From an uncultured Microbacterium sp. (GTDB taxonomy: Bacteria; Actinomycetota; Actinomycetes; Actinomycetales; Microbacteriaceae): a DNA stretch of 64,000 bases. This document shows, one piece after another, positions 1,199-27,540 of this stretch. Position 1 is the first letter of the stretch; each line of letters begins with the position of its first letter. A model generated the notes under the pieces. The model ran no database searches and was not told where the DNA came from. It was given only the letters and a program-made list of their open reading frames with translations. The translations under genes and the position numbers were made by a program. The DNA is taken from positions 434,001-498,000 of the forward strand of contig CAJYHN010000002.1 in NCBI GenBank assembly GCA_913774665.1, written 5' to 3'.

Positions 1199-2689
1199 TC
1201 AGGCGGAGTGCGTCACGCGACCGGCCAGGAGGGTCGCGCGCACGGGCATTGCACGCAGCCCACGCTCGTCGGCGGTCAGTGGGTCGGCCCCGACGATGAC
1301 GAGATCGGCGACGGCGCCCGGTGAGATCTCCGCGGGTGCGGTCGAACCCCCCGCCGTCGAGGCGGCGATCGCCGTGTCGATCCCGACCCGCTGGTGCGGC
1401 TGCCACGCGTCGCGCCCGTCGCGCGTGCGGAACACCGCCGATGCCATCGCGGCCCACGGGTCGAGGGGCGCGACGGGCGCGTCGGAGCCGAAGCGCAGAT
1501 TCGTCCCGCTGTCGGCCAGGGCGCGCAGCGGGTAGGGCTGCGCGGATTGCTCGGCCCAGATGGCATCCGTCATATCCCGATCGTCGAGCGCATGCTCGGG
1601 CTGCACGCTCGCGGCGACCCCCAGACGAGCGAAGCGCGGAATGTCGGCGTGTGCGACGAGCTGAGCGTGTTCGATGGTTCCGACCGCGCCGGTGAGGGCG
1701 TACGCGTCGAGCGCGTGCGCGTTCGCGACGTCGCCGATGGCGTGGATCGCGCAGTCGAGTCCGGCAGCCGTGGCGCGCGTCATCATGTCGACGAGCTGCT
1801 CCGGCGGAACGGTCAACAACCCGTGGTTGCCGGTGTCGCCCGGATAGTGGTGGGCGCACGCCGCGGTGCGCGTGCCCAGCGAGCCGTCGGTGATCGCCTT
1901 GAGCGGCCCCACGCGCACGAGGCCGTTCGTCGATCCCCGCACCGGGTCGCCCGTCCGGAGGCCCTCGGCGATGGCCCGGTCCAGGTCCTGCGGATACGTG
2001 CCGTACGAGATCCGCAGAGTGTCGAAGCCGCTCGCCGCTCGCCGCTGCCAGGGCTCGTCGTTCCAGGTCATGTCGAGGTCGACGAGACCCACGACCCCGC
2101 GTGCCGCGGCCGCGCGGGCCATGCGCTCCACGGCGGCGTCGGCGACGGCGGCGTCGACGGCGTTCAATCGGCGCGAGATCTCGAACGCGTCCTCTTCGAC
2201 GAGCATCCCGGATGCCACGGGCTCGAAGCCCTCGCGGCGGAAGGCCGCCGTGTTCATCCACACGCTGTGCACGTCGGCGTTGATCAGGTACGTCGGAACG
2301 CCCCGGGTGGTGGCATCCAGCAGCTCGAGGCTCGGCGCATCGGACCAGAGCCCGTCACGGAATCCGGAACCGACACGGCGGCCGTCGGACTCGGGGGCGA
2401 GCGCCATGATCGTCGCGGCATCGCGTGCGCTCACCACCTCGCCGAGGGGAACCCGACTCGCGGCGAGGGCCCACTGGAGCACGTGCACGTGGTGGTCCCA
2501 GAGCCCGGGCAGAAGCCACCCGCCCTCGCCATCGATAACGGGGCCGGTGGGTCGGAGGTTGCCCGTCGGCGCGATGTCAGCGATCCGTCCGTCGGCGATG
2601 ACGAGGTCGACGGGCTCGGACGTCGGAAGGAATTCACGTCCGGGGCCGGCCACGCGCACCGCGCGGACGAACCCCACGTTCTCGCCCAT
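1199..2689 (-). CDS. Amidohydrolase family protein (YtcJ-like, amidohydrolase 3)
   Basis: About 496 aa. The architecture matches the metal-dependent YtcJ/amidohydrolase-3 group: an N-terminal composite beta-sandwich (LVIADGRIADI), the metal-binding LLPGLWDHHVH motif, a central TIM barrel, a late His (IEHAQLV), the FGSDAPVAPLDPW motif with the catalytic Asp, and a C-terminal sandwich strand (ADLVIVGADPL). The natural substrate is not predictable; relatives hydrolyse amide or imide bonds of small molecules. The ATG at 2689 overlaps the TGA of the upstream paiB-like gene (TGATG), so translation is probably coupled. A GTG one codon upstream (2692) is an equally possible start. Confidence 0.85.
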   Translation of the reverse strand: MGENVGFVRAVRVAGPGREFLPTSEPVDLVIADGRIADIAPTGNLRPTGPVIDGEGGWLLPGLWDHHVHVLQWALAASRVPLGEVVSARDAATIMALAPESDGRRVGSGFRDGLWSDAPSLELLDATTRGVPTYLINADVHSVWMNTAAFRREGFEPVASGMLVEEDAFEISRRLNAVDAAVADAAVERMARAAAARGVVGLVDLDMTWNDEPWQRRAASGFDTLRISYGTYPQDLDRAIAEGLRTGDPVRGSTNGLVRVGPLKAITDGSLGTRTAACAHHYPGDTGNHGLLTVPPEQLVDMMTRATAAGLDCAIHAIGDVANAHALDAYALTGAVGTIEHAQLVAHADIPRFARLGVAASVQPEHALDDRDMTDAIWAEQSAQPYPLRALADSGTNLRFGSDAPVAPLDPWAAMASAVFRTRDGRDAWQPHQRVGIDTAIAASTAGGSTAPAEISPGAVADLVIVGADPLTADERGLRAMPVRATLLAGRVTHSA

Positions 2690-3315
2690 CACGGGCGGAC
2701 CCGCGCGTCGGCGGCGCGACGCATCTCGGCGGAGAGCTCGTGGCGCCCCTCGGCGGTCAGACCCTGGATGATCGTCTCGACGACCTCCACGGAACGGTTC
2801 TGGCTGAGCTTGCGCTTCGCCGTCACGCGCGTCGGCGTGAGGCGGAATCCGACGGTCCCGCGTTCGAGCCTCTCCACGAAGGCGGCGTCGTTGGGCACCG
2901 CGTACAGCCCTCGCGCGTCGTCACCGTGACCCTCGAAATGATCGACGAGGCGCTCGAGTACCCGCAGGTTCTCCGTCGGAGAGAGCAGTTCCGGGATGCC
3001 GCTGAGGTGCGCCGACACGAAGTTCCACGTGGGCACAGCCGGAACGTCCCCGTACCACCGCGGCGTGATGTAGCCGTGCGGGCCTTGCACGACGACGAGC
3101 AGCTCTCGGTCGCCGAGACCGAGGATCGCGTCGTCGGGCTTGCCGACATGGCCCACGATCGTGAGGTCGTCGCGAGTGTCGTCGAGCATGACCGCGTAGT
3201 GCGAGGCGACGAGGCCTTCGTCGGTCCGGCTGACGAGGGTGACCCAGGGGTTGAGGTCGATGAGACGGCGGATCTCACCGACGTCGGTCATCGCGAAGCT
3301 CGGATTCTGACGCAC
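2689..3315 (-). CDS. FMN-binding negative transcriptional regulator, PaiB family
   Basis: 208 aa, the normal length of PaiB proteins, which have an FMN-binding split-barrel fold. The N-terminal MRQNPSFAMTD corresponds to the family's MYxPxxF opening. The central LTIVGHVGKPDD and the GPHGYITPRWYG...PTWNF segments are typical of the flavin-binding split barrel. In Bacillus PaiB was linked to repression of sporulation and protease genes; the role here is unknown. The start is GTG with TAGGCT ending 6 nt upstream, so a leaderless message is likely. It is the first gene of a two-gene unit with the amidohydrolase. The repeat array lies immediately upstream of the promoter. Confidence 0.88.
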   Translation of the reverse strand: MRQNPSFAMTDVGEIRRLIDLNPWVTLVSRTDEGLVASHYAVMLDDTRDDLTIVGHVGKPDDAILGLGDRELLVVVQGPHGYITPRWYGDVPAVPTWNFVSAHLSGIPELLSPTENLRVLERLVDHFEGHGDDARGLYAVPNDAAFVERLERGTVGFRLTPTRVTAKRKLSQNRSVEVVETIIQGLTAEGRHELSAEMRRAADARVRP

Positions 3316-3321
3316 CGGATC

Positions 3322-3327
3322 AGCCTA
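3322..3327 (-). promoter_or_regulatory. -10 element of the paiB-like gene (leaderless promoter)
   Basis: TAGGCT on the minus strand, separated by exactly 6 nt from the GTG start at 3315, is the spacing expected for leaderless transcription. Confidence 0.6.
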
Positions 3328-3345
3328 GAACGCGGCGCCGTGCGG

Positions 3346-3362
3346 CTTCGACAGGTTGAGCC
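3346..3362. repeat. Degenerate copy of the CTTCGACAGGCTCAG-type intergenic motif
   Basis: GCTTCGACAGGTTGAGC at the left edge of the tandem array closely resembles the motif at 53905-53923 (read on the other strand as CCCTTCGACAGGCTCAGGG). Such elements are scattered between genes in many high-GC genomes as far as I recall. Function unknown. Confidence 0.5.
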
Positions 3363-3370
3363 GCGCCCCG

Positions 3371-4190
3371 TTCCCGGCGTGGTCGCTTATGGGGGCCGCG
3401 GGCGACTATTTGCGGCAGGGGGAAGGCCGGGGCGTGCGCGAGGCGCCCTTCAGTTGCCTGAGACGGTCGTTCCTCGGCCGCTCAGGCGACCATCTGCGGC
3501 AAGTGAAAGTCCAGGGCGCGCGAGGCCCCACGTCAGTTGCCTGAGATGGTCGTTCCTCGGCCGCTCACGCGACCATGTGTGGCAAGTGAAAGGCCGGGGC
3601 GTGCGCGAGGCGCCCGTCAATTGCCTGAGATGGTCGTCCCCCGGCCGCTCAGACGACCATCTGCGGCAAGTGAAAGGCCGAGGCGCTCGCGCGGCGCCCG
3701 CCAATTGCCTGAGATGGTCGTTCCTTGGCCGCTCAGGCGATCATCTGCGGCAAGTCAAGCGCGGGGCTTGCGCGGCGCCCGTCAATTGCCTGAGATGGTC
3801 GCTCCTCGGCCGCTCAGACGACCATCTGCGGCAAGTGAAAGGCCGAGGCGCTCGCGCGGCGCCCGCCGATTGCCCGAGATGGTCGATCTTCAGCCGCTCA
3901 GACGACCGTGTGCGGCAAGTCAAGCGCGGGGCTTGCGAGGCGCGCTTCAGTTGCCTGAGTTGATCATTCCTCGGCAGCTCAGACGACCATCTGCGGCAAG
4001 TGGAAGGCCGGTACGCACTGGGCGCACCTCAGTTGCCTGAGATGGTCGTTCCTCGGCCGCTGTGGCGACCATGTGGGGCAACTGAAAAGCCTGGGCACGC
4101 CGGAGGCGCGCTTCAGTTGCCTGAGATGGTCGTTCTCAGCCGCTCAGGCGACCATCTGCGGTAAGCGGAAGGCCCGGGCGCGCGCGAAAG
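3371..4190. repeat. Tandem array of about ten 81-84-bp palindromic units
   Basis: Units begin (TTGCC or its degenerate form) at 3371, 3454, 3537, 3621, 3705, 3786, 3870, 3951, 4033 and 4117, giving spacings of 83, 83, 84, 84, 81, 84, 81, 82 and 84. Each unit holds a nested inverted repeat, TTGCC-N3-GATGGTCG-(about 17 nt)-CGACCATC-N3-GGCAA, and an alternative inner pair CCTGAG/CTCAGG. About 34 bp of GC-rich linker follows and is itself conserved between units. The first and last units are the most degenerate. The array fills the gap between nei (ends at 4348) and paiB (starts at 3315), both on the minus strand. It is not CRISPR, because the linkers are not unique. Function unknown. Confidence 0.93.
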
Positions 4191-4347
4191 GCCGCGCGAG
4201 AGCGCAGCTCAGCGGGTGCCGGGGACGGAGCGGGGCGCCCGGCGCGTAAAACCCGCGCTACCCCGCACGGCGATCAGCCCCGTCGCCCCGACCGCGATCG
4301 ACGGGAATGCCACGGCCGCGCCGTCGAAAGGCCCGGAACCCGCTCGC
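4191..4347. other. Spacer between repeat array and nei, no recognisable gene
   Basis: 157 bp of GC-rich sequence. A minus-strand frame of about 34 codons (4209-4313, GTG start) encodes a small hydrophobic segment, but it has no ribosome binding site and no recognisable homology, so it is not called as a gene. Confidence 0.5.
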
Positions 4348-5340
4348 TCAAGCCTGGCACTTCGGGCACCAGTACAGCTTGCGACCGGCGGCCTCTTCCA
4401 TCACGATCGCCGTTCCGCACACGCGGCAGGGCAGACCCTCGCGGTGGTAGACCCAGTGCCGGTCGGCGCGACGCGCCATCGCGCGCCGGTAGGCGGCGGG
4501 GTCGAGCCCGTCCATCGTCATCATCTGACCGGTCTCGACGCCGATCGGCAGCAGCGTCGCCCAGTCGCGCCAGATGCCCCGCACGACCTCTTCGGGCACG
4601 TCACGCCCGGGCGTGTGCGGGTTCTGCCGCGCGCGGAACAGCAGCTCGGCGCGGTACACGTTGCCGATGCCGCTCACGACCGCCTGATCCATGAGCAGGA
4701 GGCCGATGGGCGTGGGCTTCTTGCGCACCGTGGCGGTGAAGCGCTCCTCGCCCTCCGCGAGGTCGTCGACGAGGGGATCGGGCCCGAGCTTCGCGATGGT
4801 CGCCTGCACCTCGTCGGGTGTCTGCAGCACGCACGCCGTCGGTCCGCGCAGGTCGGCGCACGTGGAGTCGGTGAGCAGGCGCAGGCGCACCTGGCCGACC
4901 ACCGGCGGAGGCCACTCGTTCTGCCCCTCGAGACCTGTCGTCTGCTCCGACATGCGCACGCGCGTGCGACGTGGTGCGCCGATCGAGGTCAGAGAGTTCT
5001 CGCCCGCGGCATCCAGGATCGGCTCGTCGTCGATCACGGTGCCACGCTGGTTCGTCTGGCCCATGCGGCCGTTGGCCGAGGCGATCGTCGCGTCGACGAC
5101 CACGTCGCCCGAGAAGTCCCACGCACCGTACATCCCGAGGTGTACGCGCAGCCAGACGTCGCCGTCGAAGCGGAGGAACATCTGCTTCGCCACCGCCCGC
5201 ACCTCGAGCGCCTCGCGGCCGTCGATGACGGACGCGCCCTCGACGAAACGCCCCTGGGGACTGGATGCCGCGACCGTGCGTCCCACGATGTTGCGGTCGA
5301 ACTGCCGCGCGATGCGGTGGACGGAATGCCCTTCGGGCAT
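4348..5340 (-). CDS. Fpg/Nei-family DNA glycosylase/AP lyase (endonuclease VIII type)
   Basis: 330 aa. The protein starts MPEGHSVHR, the catalytic Pro2-Glu3 pair of the Fpg/Nei family (PEGH is the Nei-type variant). It excises oxidised bases and nicks the abasic site by beta/delta elimination. The helix-two-turn-helix region is present (VVSGIGNVYRAELLF), and a C-terminal zinc finger has Cys305, Cys308, Cys325 and Cys328. A roughly 50-residue insertion after about residue 95 makes it longer than E. coli Nei. The ATG overlaps the rpiB stop codon (TGATG), so the two are co-translated. Which of the actinobacterial Nei paralogues this is cannot be settled by eye. Confidence 0.92.
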   Translation of the reverse strand: MPEGHSVHRIARQFDRNIVGRTVAASSPQGRFVEGASVIDGREALEVRAVAKQMFLRFDGDVWLRVHLGMYGAWDFSGDVVVDATIASANGRMGQTNQRGTVIDDEPILDAAGENSLTSIGAPRRTRVRMSEQTTGLEGQNEWPPPVVGQVRLRLLTDSTCADLRGPTACVLQTPDEVQATIAKLGPDPLVDDLAEGEERFTATVRKKPTPIGLLLMDQAVVSGIGNVYRAELLFRARQNPHTPGRDVPEEVVRGIWRDWATLLPIGVETGQMMTMDGLDPAAYRRAMARRADRHWVYHREGLPCRVCGTAIVMEEAAGRKLYWCPKCQA

Positions 5341-5882
5341 CAGCCTGCCTCGGGGTCGAACGAGTCGCTGGCGTCGGTCATGGTGTTCGGCTTCTCACCG
5401 GCGCGCGGGTCGGGCAGCAGCACCCCGTCCTGCTCGAAGGCGGCGAGCTGACCGATGCGGCGCGCGTGGCGCTCCTCGCCCGAGAACGGGGTGGCGATGA
5501 AGCGGTCGATGAACGACGCGGCCTCGTCGAAGGTGTGCTGACGCGCACCGATCGAGATGACGTTGGCGTCGTTGTGCTCACGGGCGAGCTCTGCGGTGGA
5601 GATGTTCCACACGAGCGCCGCGCGCACGCCCAGCACCTTGTTCGCGGCGATCTGCTCACCGTTGCCGGAGCCGCCGAACACGACACCGAGGGCCTCGACG
5701 CCCGCGGCCTGGTCGCGAACCACGGCCTGGGCCGCGCGGATGCAGAACGCCGGGTAGTCGTCGAGGGCGTCGTACTCGATCGGGCCGTGGTCGACGACCT
5801 CGTGCCCCTGAGAGGCGAGGTGGTGCTGGATCTGGGTGGAGAACTCGAGACCGGCGTGATCGGTGCCGATGTGGATGCGCAT
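5340..5882 (-). CDS. rpiB: Ribose-5-phosphate isomerase B
   Basis: 180 aa. It interconverts ribose-5-phosphate and ribulose-5-phosphate in the pentose phosphate pathway. The N-terminal MRIHIGTDHAG and the phosphate-binding loop GGSGNGEQIAANKV are diagnostic. Position 76 is Glu where many RpiB proteins have the catalytic Cys; this is the mycobacterial-type active site. The C-terminus carries a roughly 20-residue polar extension. The ATG has TAGACT ending 6 nt upstream (5889-5894), so a leaderless transcript is likely. The stop overlaps the start of nei. Confidence 0.95.
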   Translation of the reverse strand: MRIHIGTDHAGLEFSTQIQHHLASQGHEVVDHGPIEYDALDDYPAFCIRAAQAVVRDQAAGVEALGVVFGGSGNGEQIAANKVLGVRAALVWNISTAELAREHNDANVISIGARQHTFDEAASFIDRFIATPFSGEERHARRIGQLAAFEQDGVLLPDPRAGEKPNTMTDASDSFDPEAG

Positions 5883-16317: not shown

Positions 16318-16855
16318 TCACCCGCGCGAACGGCCCCTGCGGTACTCGATGGGGTCGCCGATGTACGGCGCCCAGGCGGAGCGTTCCGCCTCGGTCCAGC
16401 GGATGGGTCGGCCACTGGCGGTGTCGACGAGAACCGTGACGGCCGTGGCGCGGGCGTACAGCACGGGCTCGGCGTCACCGACGGGGCTGTAGACCTCGAA
16501 GCAGATGTCGGCGCTCGATCCGCCCATCGCGCCGATCCACATGCGCACGTCGAGCGGGCGTTGACTGTACGGCACCGGGCGCAGGTACTCGATCTCTTGA
16601 CGGGCGATCAGCGTGGCGCGATCGCCGCCGCTCTCGAGCACGTCCATGTCGAACACCGCCGTCGGCAGCGGTTCTCCCTCGCCGTCACTGTGCCAGAACG
16701 CGCGCAGCCGCGCCTCTTCGAGCAACTTCAACATCGAGGTGTTGTTGACGTGCCCGAGGGCGTCGAGGTCGCCCCAGCGGAGGTGGATGGGCACGTGCAC
16801 CCGCGAGGGCCCGGCGACCGCCGGACCCTCGTCGGGGGTGTGCTCCGCGCGGCTG

Positions 16856-16863: not shown

Positions 16864-18535
<1,672 letters not shown>

Positions 18536-27104: not shown

Positions 27105-27540
27105 CCGGCCGCCCGCTCGTCCCACGCCCGGAAGCTCCGCGATTCGCGCAACGTCAGCCGGGACAGGGCCGACACCACTGAGGATGCGCGAATCACTGAA
27201 GATGCGGCAGGTGCCCGCTCGACCCCGCCCGGAGGGCCGGAACCACTGAGGATGCGCGAATCACCGAAGATGCGGCAGATGCCCGCACGCCCCACTCCCC
27301 GAACCTCCGCGATTCGCACAACCTCAGCCCGGACAGGGCCGGAACCACTGATGATGCGCGAATCACTGAGCTCGCGGCAGGTGCCCGCTCGTCCCGCGCC
27401 GGGAAGCTCCGCGATTCGCACAACCTCAGCCCGAACAGGCCCAAACCCACTGAGGATGCGGCAATCGCCGAGAATGCGACAGGCTCCCGCTCGCCCCCGC
27501 CGCGGAGGCTCCCCGATCCGCACGGGCTCCACCTGGCACG
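27105..27540. repeat. Second palindromic tandem array, 102-bp period
   Basis: Left arms GATTCGC(R)CAAC... occur at 27141, 27311, 27413 and, degenerate, 27515 (spacings 170, 102, 102). The 170 equals 102 plus 68, because one unit has lost about 34 bp including its left arm. Each full unit carries a 17-nt imperfect inverted repeat (27141-27157 with 27178-27194; 27311-27327 with 27348-27364; 27413-27429 with 27450-27466) with 20-nt loops. The array lies upstream of dinB and beyond the gatB terminator. No coding capacity is apparent. Confidence 0.9.

Follow-up and report, generated by a model that had tools for sequence, protein, structure and literature searches.

We identified an array of palindromic units in the window, by which we mean the whole stretch of 64,000 nucleotides from an uncultured Microbacterium sp. 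that was analysed. The array occupies positions 3371–4199, consists of nine complete units and one decayed unit with a pitch of 81–84 bp, and is placed between nei and a gene of the FMN_bind_2 type. The features of this region are:

2689–3315, minus strand: FMN_bind_2 (PaiB-like) gene, the downstream neighbour (PF04299)
3342–3364, no strand assigned: probable remnant, seen by eye, of an older TTCGACAGGCTCAG-type palindrome, a type present in the same intergenic region of relatives
3371–3453, minus strand: decayed unit 10, lacking the TTGCC arm (alignment; model match G000:C2:437367-437419, E 1.1e-5)
3454–3502, minus strand: palindromic unit core of 49 bp, its canonical reading being the minus strand (alignment, model search)
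3537–3585, minus strand: palindromic unit core (alignment, model search)
3621–3669, minus strand: palindromic unit core, at -27.6 kcal/mol and z -4.3 the most stable of five window units folded alone (alignment, model search, folding)
3705–3753, minus strand: palindromic unit core (alignment, model search)
3786–3834, minus strand: palindromic unit core (alignment, model search)
3870–3918, minus strand: palindromic unit core (alignment, model search)
3951–3999, minus strand: palindromic unit core, its inner arm decayed to GTTGATCA (alignment, model search)
4033–4081, minus strand: palindromic unit core with an extended outer arm, CAGTTGCC/GGCAACTG (alignment, model search, exact count)
4117–4165, minus strand: palindromic unit core in which GGTAA replaces GGCAA (alignment, model search)
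4190–4318, minus strand: 129-bp tail of an MFS gene (blastn, E 1e-33)
4348–5340, minus strand: nei/fpg-type DNA glycosylase gene, the upstream neighbour (PF06831, PF01149, PF06827)

Each window unit is an imperfect palindrome with a 49-bp core, the cores being separated by linkers of 32–35 bp. The starts of the nine complete units are spaced 83, 84, 84, 81, 84, 81, 82 and 84 bp, and Tandem Repeats Finder describes the array as 9.5 copies of period 84 (score 907). The original prediction of a ten-unit tandem array with a spacing of 81–84 bp is borne out, except that the tenth unit, at about 3371, is decayed and without TTGCC. It had also held that every unit keeps nested arms and a competing inner pair, CCTGAG/CTCAGG. 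The nested arms are mostly kept (exact counts among the nine complete units are TTGCC 9, GATGGTCG 7, CGACCATC 5 and GGCAA 8), and the extended outer arm described for the unit at 4033 is present. However, the inner pair is not: CCTGAG occurs in eight units and CTCAGG in three, and both occur together in only 3/9.

A switch of each unit between two folds had been proposed from this inner pair. In constrained folding of the plus strand of the nine units, the inner fold has the lowest energy in two, is less favourable by 1.3 to 9.6 kcal/mol in four, and has no value in the remaining three. A conserved two-fold switch was therefore rejected on the inner-arm counts and the constrained folding. When five window units were folded alone, the nested hairpin formed fully or partly in four (z -1.8 to -4.3); the minimum of the 4033 unit is another fold. 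The whole minus-strand array as RNA is more stable than its shuffles (z -7.6, from 20 shuffles only), with a best fold that includes long-range pairing.

The 34-bp linkers are conserved within the array, as had been claimed, but their mean identity of 71% is below the 88% of the cores. Such linkers set the array apart from CRISPR, in which near-identical repeats alternate with unique spacers, and this assignment was rejected in agreement with the original description. A protein-coding repeat, judged on pitch alone, was likewise rejected, as pitches of 74 and 107 bp in sister arrays and of 82 and 83 bp in the window speak against a unit length that is a multiple of three. At the gathering threshold Rfam finds two tRNAs only in the window and no family that matches the array, in agreement with the earlier remark that no matching described family was known.

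We searched the array's own genome (3.58 Mb in 14 contigs) with a covariance model of 19 units, ignoring four matches at E 0.16–0.86, and found 30 units at five loci. Besides the window array, these are:

7 units with a pitch of 74, beside the gene for ribosomal protein S4
4 units after an MFS gene
6 units with a pitch of 107–121, after a nicotinate phosphoribosyltransferase gene
3 scattered units flanked by a TPP enzyme gene on one side and an MFS gene on the other

At the nei locus itself, none of 27 readable relatives carries the array (58 genomes had a nei match, and 29 loci were fetched), and in the closest of them, with Nei 95% identical, the intergenic region is short and contains TTCGACAGGCTCAGG-type repeats. 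The 129 bp bordering the array on its nei side match an MFS gene about 154 kb away, at its 3' end and downstream edge, with 81% identity; this gene has another array of the family beside it (locus L009). Given this gene tail at the border and the absence of the array from relatives, the window array is most simply read, from sequence comparison, as a gene tail and its array copied together to an ectopic site, with a number of units that now differs.

Three further observations concern these regions. In the nei downstream regions of three relatives (L177, L179 and L182), TTCGACAGGCTCAGGGACC-type palindromic repeats stand where the window has the array, and probable remnants of these flank the array. 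At L009 the MFS gene tail recurs after that gene's array in a second copy, which is more decayed (positions 4709–4797, 72% identity over 89 bp). At the same locus, an inverted pair (GTGAGGGGTCGA... / ...TCGACCCCTCACGC, at 16712–16745 and 17463–17490) brackets the nicotinate phosphoribosyltransferase array, as seen by eye.

A first, narrow model matched 5/58 genomes, namely the array's own and four others of the genus. We then used a second model, built on 31 units drawn from more than one species, with a cut-off of E<=1e-3 within Microbacterium and E<=1e-5 across the family. Counting the array's own genome, it matches 128/295 Microbacterium genomes and, at the stricter cut-off, 47/199 genomes of Microbacteriaceae, in 33/85 genera. 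The search of relatives that had been suggested as a check thus gives a divided answer: the nei copy is confined to its own genome among the 27 readable relatives, whereas the family is widespread. The window array, a copy that is apparently private to its species, thus belongs to a widespread family that is REP/BIME-like but lacks a RAYT in the genomes searched.

Many loci are common to several species, with differing unit numbers, and copy number, 30 units in the own genome, reaches a maximum of 48 matches (both strands counted) among 30 genomes. Distant matches have the length of 53 bp in common and mostly also a GCANAT-like core; membership of the farthest is less sure, because the model rewards any well-paired palindrome of such size. 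An exact-pattern scan of the GTDB collection returned at least 114 stretches, of which most of the 80 listed look like chance matches and those in M. testaceum StLB037 and M. luticocti were useful. The pattern ATGGTCG-gap-CGACCAT over the 295 genomes gave listed matches that look mostly coding; the 31-bp matches (gap 17) are conspicuous by eye and were not counted as proof. In the literature, as covered by open papers, we came across no account of such a family for Microbacteriaceae, nor of a helical pitch in REP-like arrays.

The units of this family are pairs of facing, inverted 18-bp half-sites. In a half-site scan of seven genomes the gap between them is exactly 15 bp in 73 of 75 pairs and 16 bp in the other two; the profiles were built per genome from covariance-model units and so are free of the model's lengths but not of its choice of loci, and the array's own genome, with a profile threshold of 1.2 bits (noise), was left out. 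The gap sequence varies while its length stays near-fixed. Linkers in the same scan group near 12, 22, 43–44 and 52–56 bp, with a few at 29–32, 41, 45 and 58 bp. Between orthologous units (27/29 pairs kept) the arms are 86% identical, the gaps 71% and the flanks 70%, a comparison biased by the requirement that both orthologues be model matches. Of the 24 pairs in which gap length could be measured, 18 keep it and six do not, and the gap edges show no pairing beyond shuffles (0.406 vs 0.409).

The arms covary across subfamilies (score 0.151 vs 0.084, with 0/500 shuffles as high), but this does not distinguish a hairpin from a protein site, since two inverted copies of an evolving half-site yield the same signal. 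A unit's own arms also match each other better than arms shuffled among units of the same genome (pooled 0.809 vs 0.741, 0/2000). By genome the difference has p<0.05 in 9/21 and not in 12/21, two of 23 genomes having been dropped for fewer than four units. This better match could come from a constraint at the level of the hairpin or from the presence of several subfamilies per genome.

In close-set arrays, unit pitches cluster at class means of 63.0, 73.3, 83.6, 94.6 and 104.3 bp, that is, in steps of one helical turn. For units at most 130 bp apart, phase was tested at a period of 10.5 bp against uniform pitches of 60–130 bp. The phasing was noticed on the first loci, and the 46 exploratory arrays, a set without 24 weaker matches, give R=0.82 (0/20000 random sets as high). 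Sixty further regions were then fetched for a later test, 59 from the 30-genome match list and one from the 295-genome search; two of them, L332 and L373, had been partly seen before (L373 was counted as exploratory), and L388 covers L225. Unit starts were transcribed by hand, those of L302, L377 and L387 being shifted a few bases to the model start.

The 15 later arrays give R=0.87 at 10.5 bp, with a best period of 10.6 bp and 0/20000 random sets as high, and 13 arrays remain with R=0.86 when L332 is omitted. These 15 are not independent of the exploratory set, because four of their eight genomes had been used before and some loci (L332, L349, L350 and L374) are orthologous to exploratory ones. 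Five of them, with pitches of 72, 103, 94, 103 and 72 bp, come from genomes new to the analysis. In the strictest hold-out, which keeps later groups without an exploratory orthologue, nine groups give R=0.68, and 56/5000 random sets are as high.

In a neutral reading, a terminator-like palindrome would be amplified by replication slippage and the quantised pitch would be chance from few ancestral pitches. Linkers are alike within an array (71% identity in the window), some arrays have linker sequence or flanks in common, and the strict hold-out is small, all of which suit this reading. However, phasing persists with one value per linker-sequence cluster (61 clusters, R=0.74, 0/20000 random sets as high) and when arrays that share orthologous flanks are merged into 45 groups (R=0.72, 0/5000). 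In one genome, G110, unit pairs at seven loci have linkers of equal length, 10 bp, and mostly unrelated sequence, and at locus L333 differing but near in-phase pitches of 83, 72 and 73 bp stand side by side. The neutral minisatellite was already disfavoured on this evidence, and we regard it as very improbable.

Using the distinct pitches per genome (n=38) gives R=0.75 (0/5000), and R stays at 0.79 or above when any one pitch class is dropped; the seven G110 arrays were counted singly in the tests of 46 and 15 arrays and of 61 clusters, and once in the class-mean and class-drop analysis. Out-of-phase pitches are also present (70, 77, 80, 89, 113, 121 and 123 bp), and pitches above 110 bp form a loose class (mean 118, sd 4.7, n=4). 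Seventeen spacings of 131–300 bp, kept outside the phase test, show no phasing (R=0.32). Among other genera there are three close arrays, two in phase and one not (R=0.30).

A heuristic gene call puts 129 of the 170 places with units in intergenic DNA, with 62 between convergent genes, 58 between tandem and 9 between divergent genes; a further 20 overlap an ORF and 21 have no called neighbour. Other gene pairs at the same loci are convergent in 22 cases, tandem in 94 and divergent in 24 (odds ratio 5.0, p 1e-8, in counts that include loci orthologous to one another). The median distance to the nearest stop codon is 21 bp for single units (n=78) and 56.5 bp for arrays (n=42). This placement near gene ends resembles that of REP and BIME elements.

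The neighbouring genes are diverse. A Pfam search of 126 neighbour proteins (of 245 references) found no dominant family, the most frequent being MFS_1 (9) and ABC_tran (6), and regulation of one particular neighbour by its own product was rejected on this ground. Three of the 126 carry the DUF559/MTES_1575 nuclease domain; nine genomes hold 49 DUF559 matches, two of them beside an array by eye, and the link to arrays is weak. One of the three, a gene with this nuclease fold at L207 (positions 3278–4303, contig C8), lies between the two parts of an array locus.

Near-perfect arms and a place close to stop codons are compatible as well with a hairpin formed by RNA or by a single strand. The units might form an RNA 3'-end element, whose hairpins stop transcription arriving from either of two convergent genes or shield the ends of mRNAs, with arrays serving as reinforced terminators. 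The short distance of single units from stop codons and the enrichment between convergent genes agree with such a role, as do strong hairpins (z -1.8 to -9.6 for ten units folded), the arm covariation across subfamilies and the pooled advantage of a unit's own arms. However, no T-tract follows the units: T makes up 0.05–0.16 at each of 30 positions, and TTTT lies within 10 nt in 2/210 strand readings, for which reason an intrinsic terminator of stem-loop and U-tract was rejected. A terminator scan of window positions 3200–4500, which allows loops of 3–8 only, found 0. An RNA 3'-end element further predicts neither the near-fixed gap nor the helical pitch. The same holds for the chain of about ten RNA hairpins that had been envisaged for the window, which is possible but leaves the near-fixed 15-bp gap, its variable sequence and the helical-turn spacing unexplained. 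We consider an RNA 3'-end role rather unlikely.

The near-fixed gap of variable sequence and the helical pitch favour, on balance, a role of the units as double-stranded DNA rather than as hairpins, and the whole-turn spacing suggests a protein bound side by side on the palindromes. We lean slightly towards reading the array as clustered sites at which a putative protein binds double-stranded DNA cooperatively and would form a boundary at gene 3' ends. Each unit is a pair of inverted half-sites of about 18 bp, some 15 bp apart, to which a putative sequence-specific protein would bind as a dimer or tetramer. Within close-set arrays, the distance from one unit to the next tends to be a whole number of helical turns, which would place the units on one face of the helix, where neighbouring complexes could touch and join into a nucleoprotein cluster, formed cooperatively, at the 3' ends of genes. 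Such a cluster might act as a transcription roadblock or as a supercoil or architecture element, as is thought for BIMEs. Arrays would grow by tandem duplication and may be copied elsewhere with a neighbour's gene tail, as at nei.

The most encompassing form of this proposal is a chromosome-boundary system of Microbacteriaceae in which the putative protein recognises a half-site of about 18 bp that evolves by lineage, with sites paired 15 bp apart, and polymerises along helix-registered arrays at gene 3' ends, doing the work of BIMEs without a RAYT. We offer it as a tentative possibility that is doubtful as a whole. The role of REP-like palindromes has long been unsettled between RNA functions, selfish spread and DNA architecture. 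A repeat family in which gap length and array pitch follow the helix while the sequences of gap and linker change would point directly and testably to a role as double-stranded DNA, and it also supplies sites for finding the binding protein.

A further reading is selfish spread: the units may be a REP/REPIN- or MITE-like repeat without current host function, in which a putative transposase bound at one copy places new copies at helix-phased distances and arrays grow by unequal recombination. This reading is consistent with dispersed and lineage-specific subfamilies, with the unrelated flanks in G110, with a nei array that is confined to one genome among the 27 readable relatives and carries a gene tail, and with the tandem REPIN arrays known from PMC3116915. 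On the other side, the RAYT-type transposase PF01797, the only family searched, was found in 0/42 Microbacterium genomes (25 with a family match and 17 without), by a search that was positive in 5/14 known genomes as control, and a RAYT/IS200 link in the genus was rejected. Several species also retain copies at orthologous sites, their arms being conserved more strongly than their gaps, and gap length is kept where gap sequence is not. A purely selfish repeat seems to us unlikely.

In preference to these alternatives, our best reading remains that of REP/BIME-like sites for a putative cooperatively binding protein, and a comparison with known systems shows both sides of the likeness. BIME-2 and REP elements of Escherichia coli are extragenic palindromes in ordered arrays for which a role in genome organisation has been proposed, and gyrase cleavage sites are enriched at BIME-2 (PMC6379681). 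The Microbacterium family differs in its units, which are 53 bp long and made of two 18-bp half-sites at a near-fixed distance, in the lack of the RAYT/Y1 transposase (PF01797, 42 genomes) and in its helical-turn pitch, of which the accessible part of PMC6379681 makes no mention for BIMEs. REP copy number is high, usually above 100 per genome according to PMC2817692, against about 30 units here. The family is thus a short, dispersed extragenic palindrome like REP but, in the genomes searched, has neither more than 100 copies nor a RAYT.

The array had originally been called unlike scattered REP elements, which is half right, as tandem REPIN arrays that include flanking DNA are described for Pseudomonas fluorescens in PMC3116915. 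The REPINs of strain SBW25 resemble the present family in having two inverted short repeats per unit, subfamilies within a genome, and tandem arrays that repeat flanking DNA. However, they are RAYT-linked there, whereas PF01797 is absent from the 42 Microbacterium genomes searched, and their spacings of 71 and 110 (72 and 112 in arrays) form no single 10.5-bp series. GTAG- and CGTC-tagged repeats are palindrome families that range from singletons to clusters with flanking DNA (PMC3733652), and a word-start search of that paper finds no mention of Actinobacteria, Microbacterium or Clavibacter. No GTAG or CGTC tag is seen by eye at the ends of the window units and their sister units, though one unit of another genome (G018) begins with CGTC. 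Mycobacterial MIRU-VNTR loci are also intergenic tandem repeats in an actinobacterium, with copy numbers that differ between loci. MIRUs are not known to be inverted pairs of half-sites with a helical pitch, unlike the Microbacterium family.

Two other palindrome arrays came to light. A second, unrelated intergenic array lies at window positions 27141–27523, with half-sites GATTCGCACAACCTCAG and CTGAGGATGCGCGAATC that are 37 bp apart from start to start and unit pitches of 68, 102 and 102, which do not agree with whole helical turns. In M. luticocti (L135, positions 4995–5818), tandem 179-bp units carry GGTCGCAGAAG...CTTCTGCGACC palindromes and apparently represent another palindrome family.
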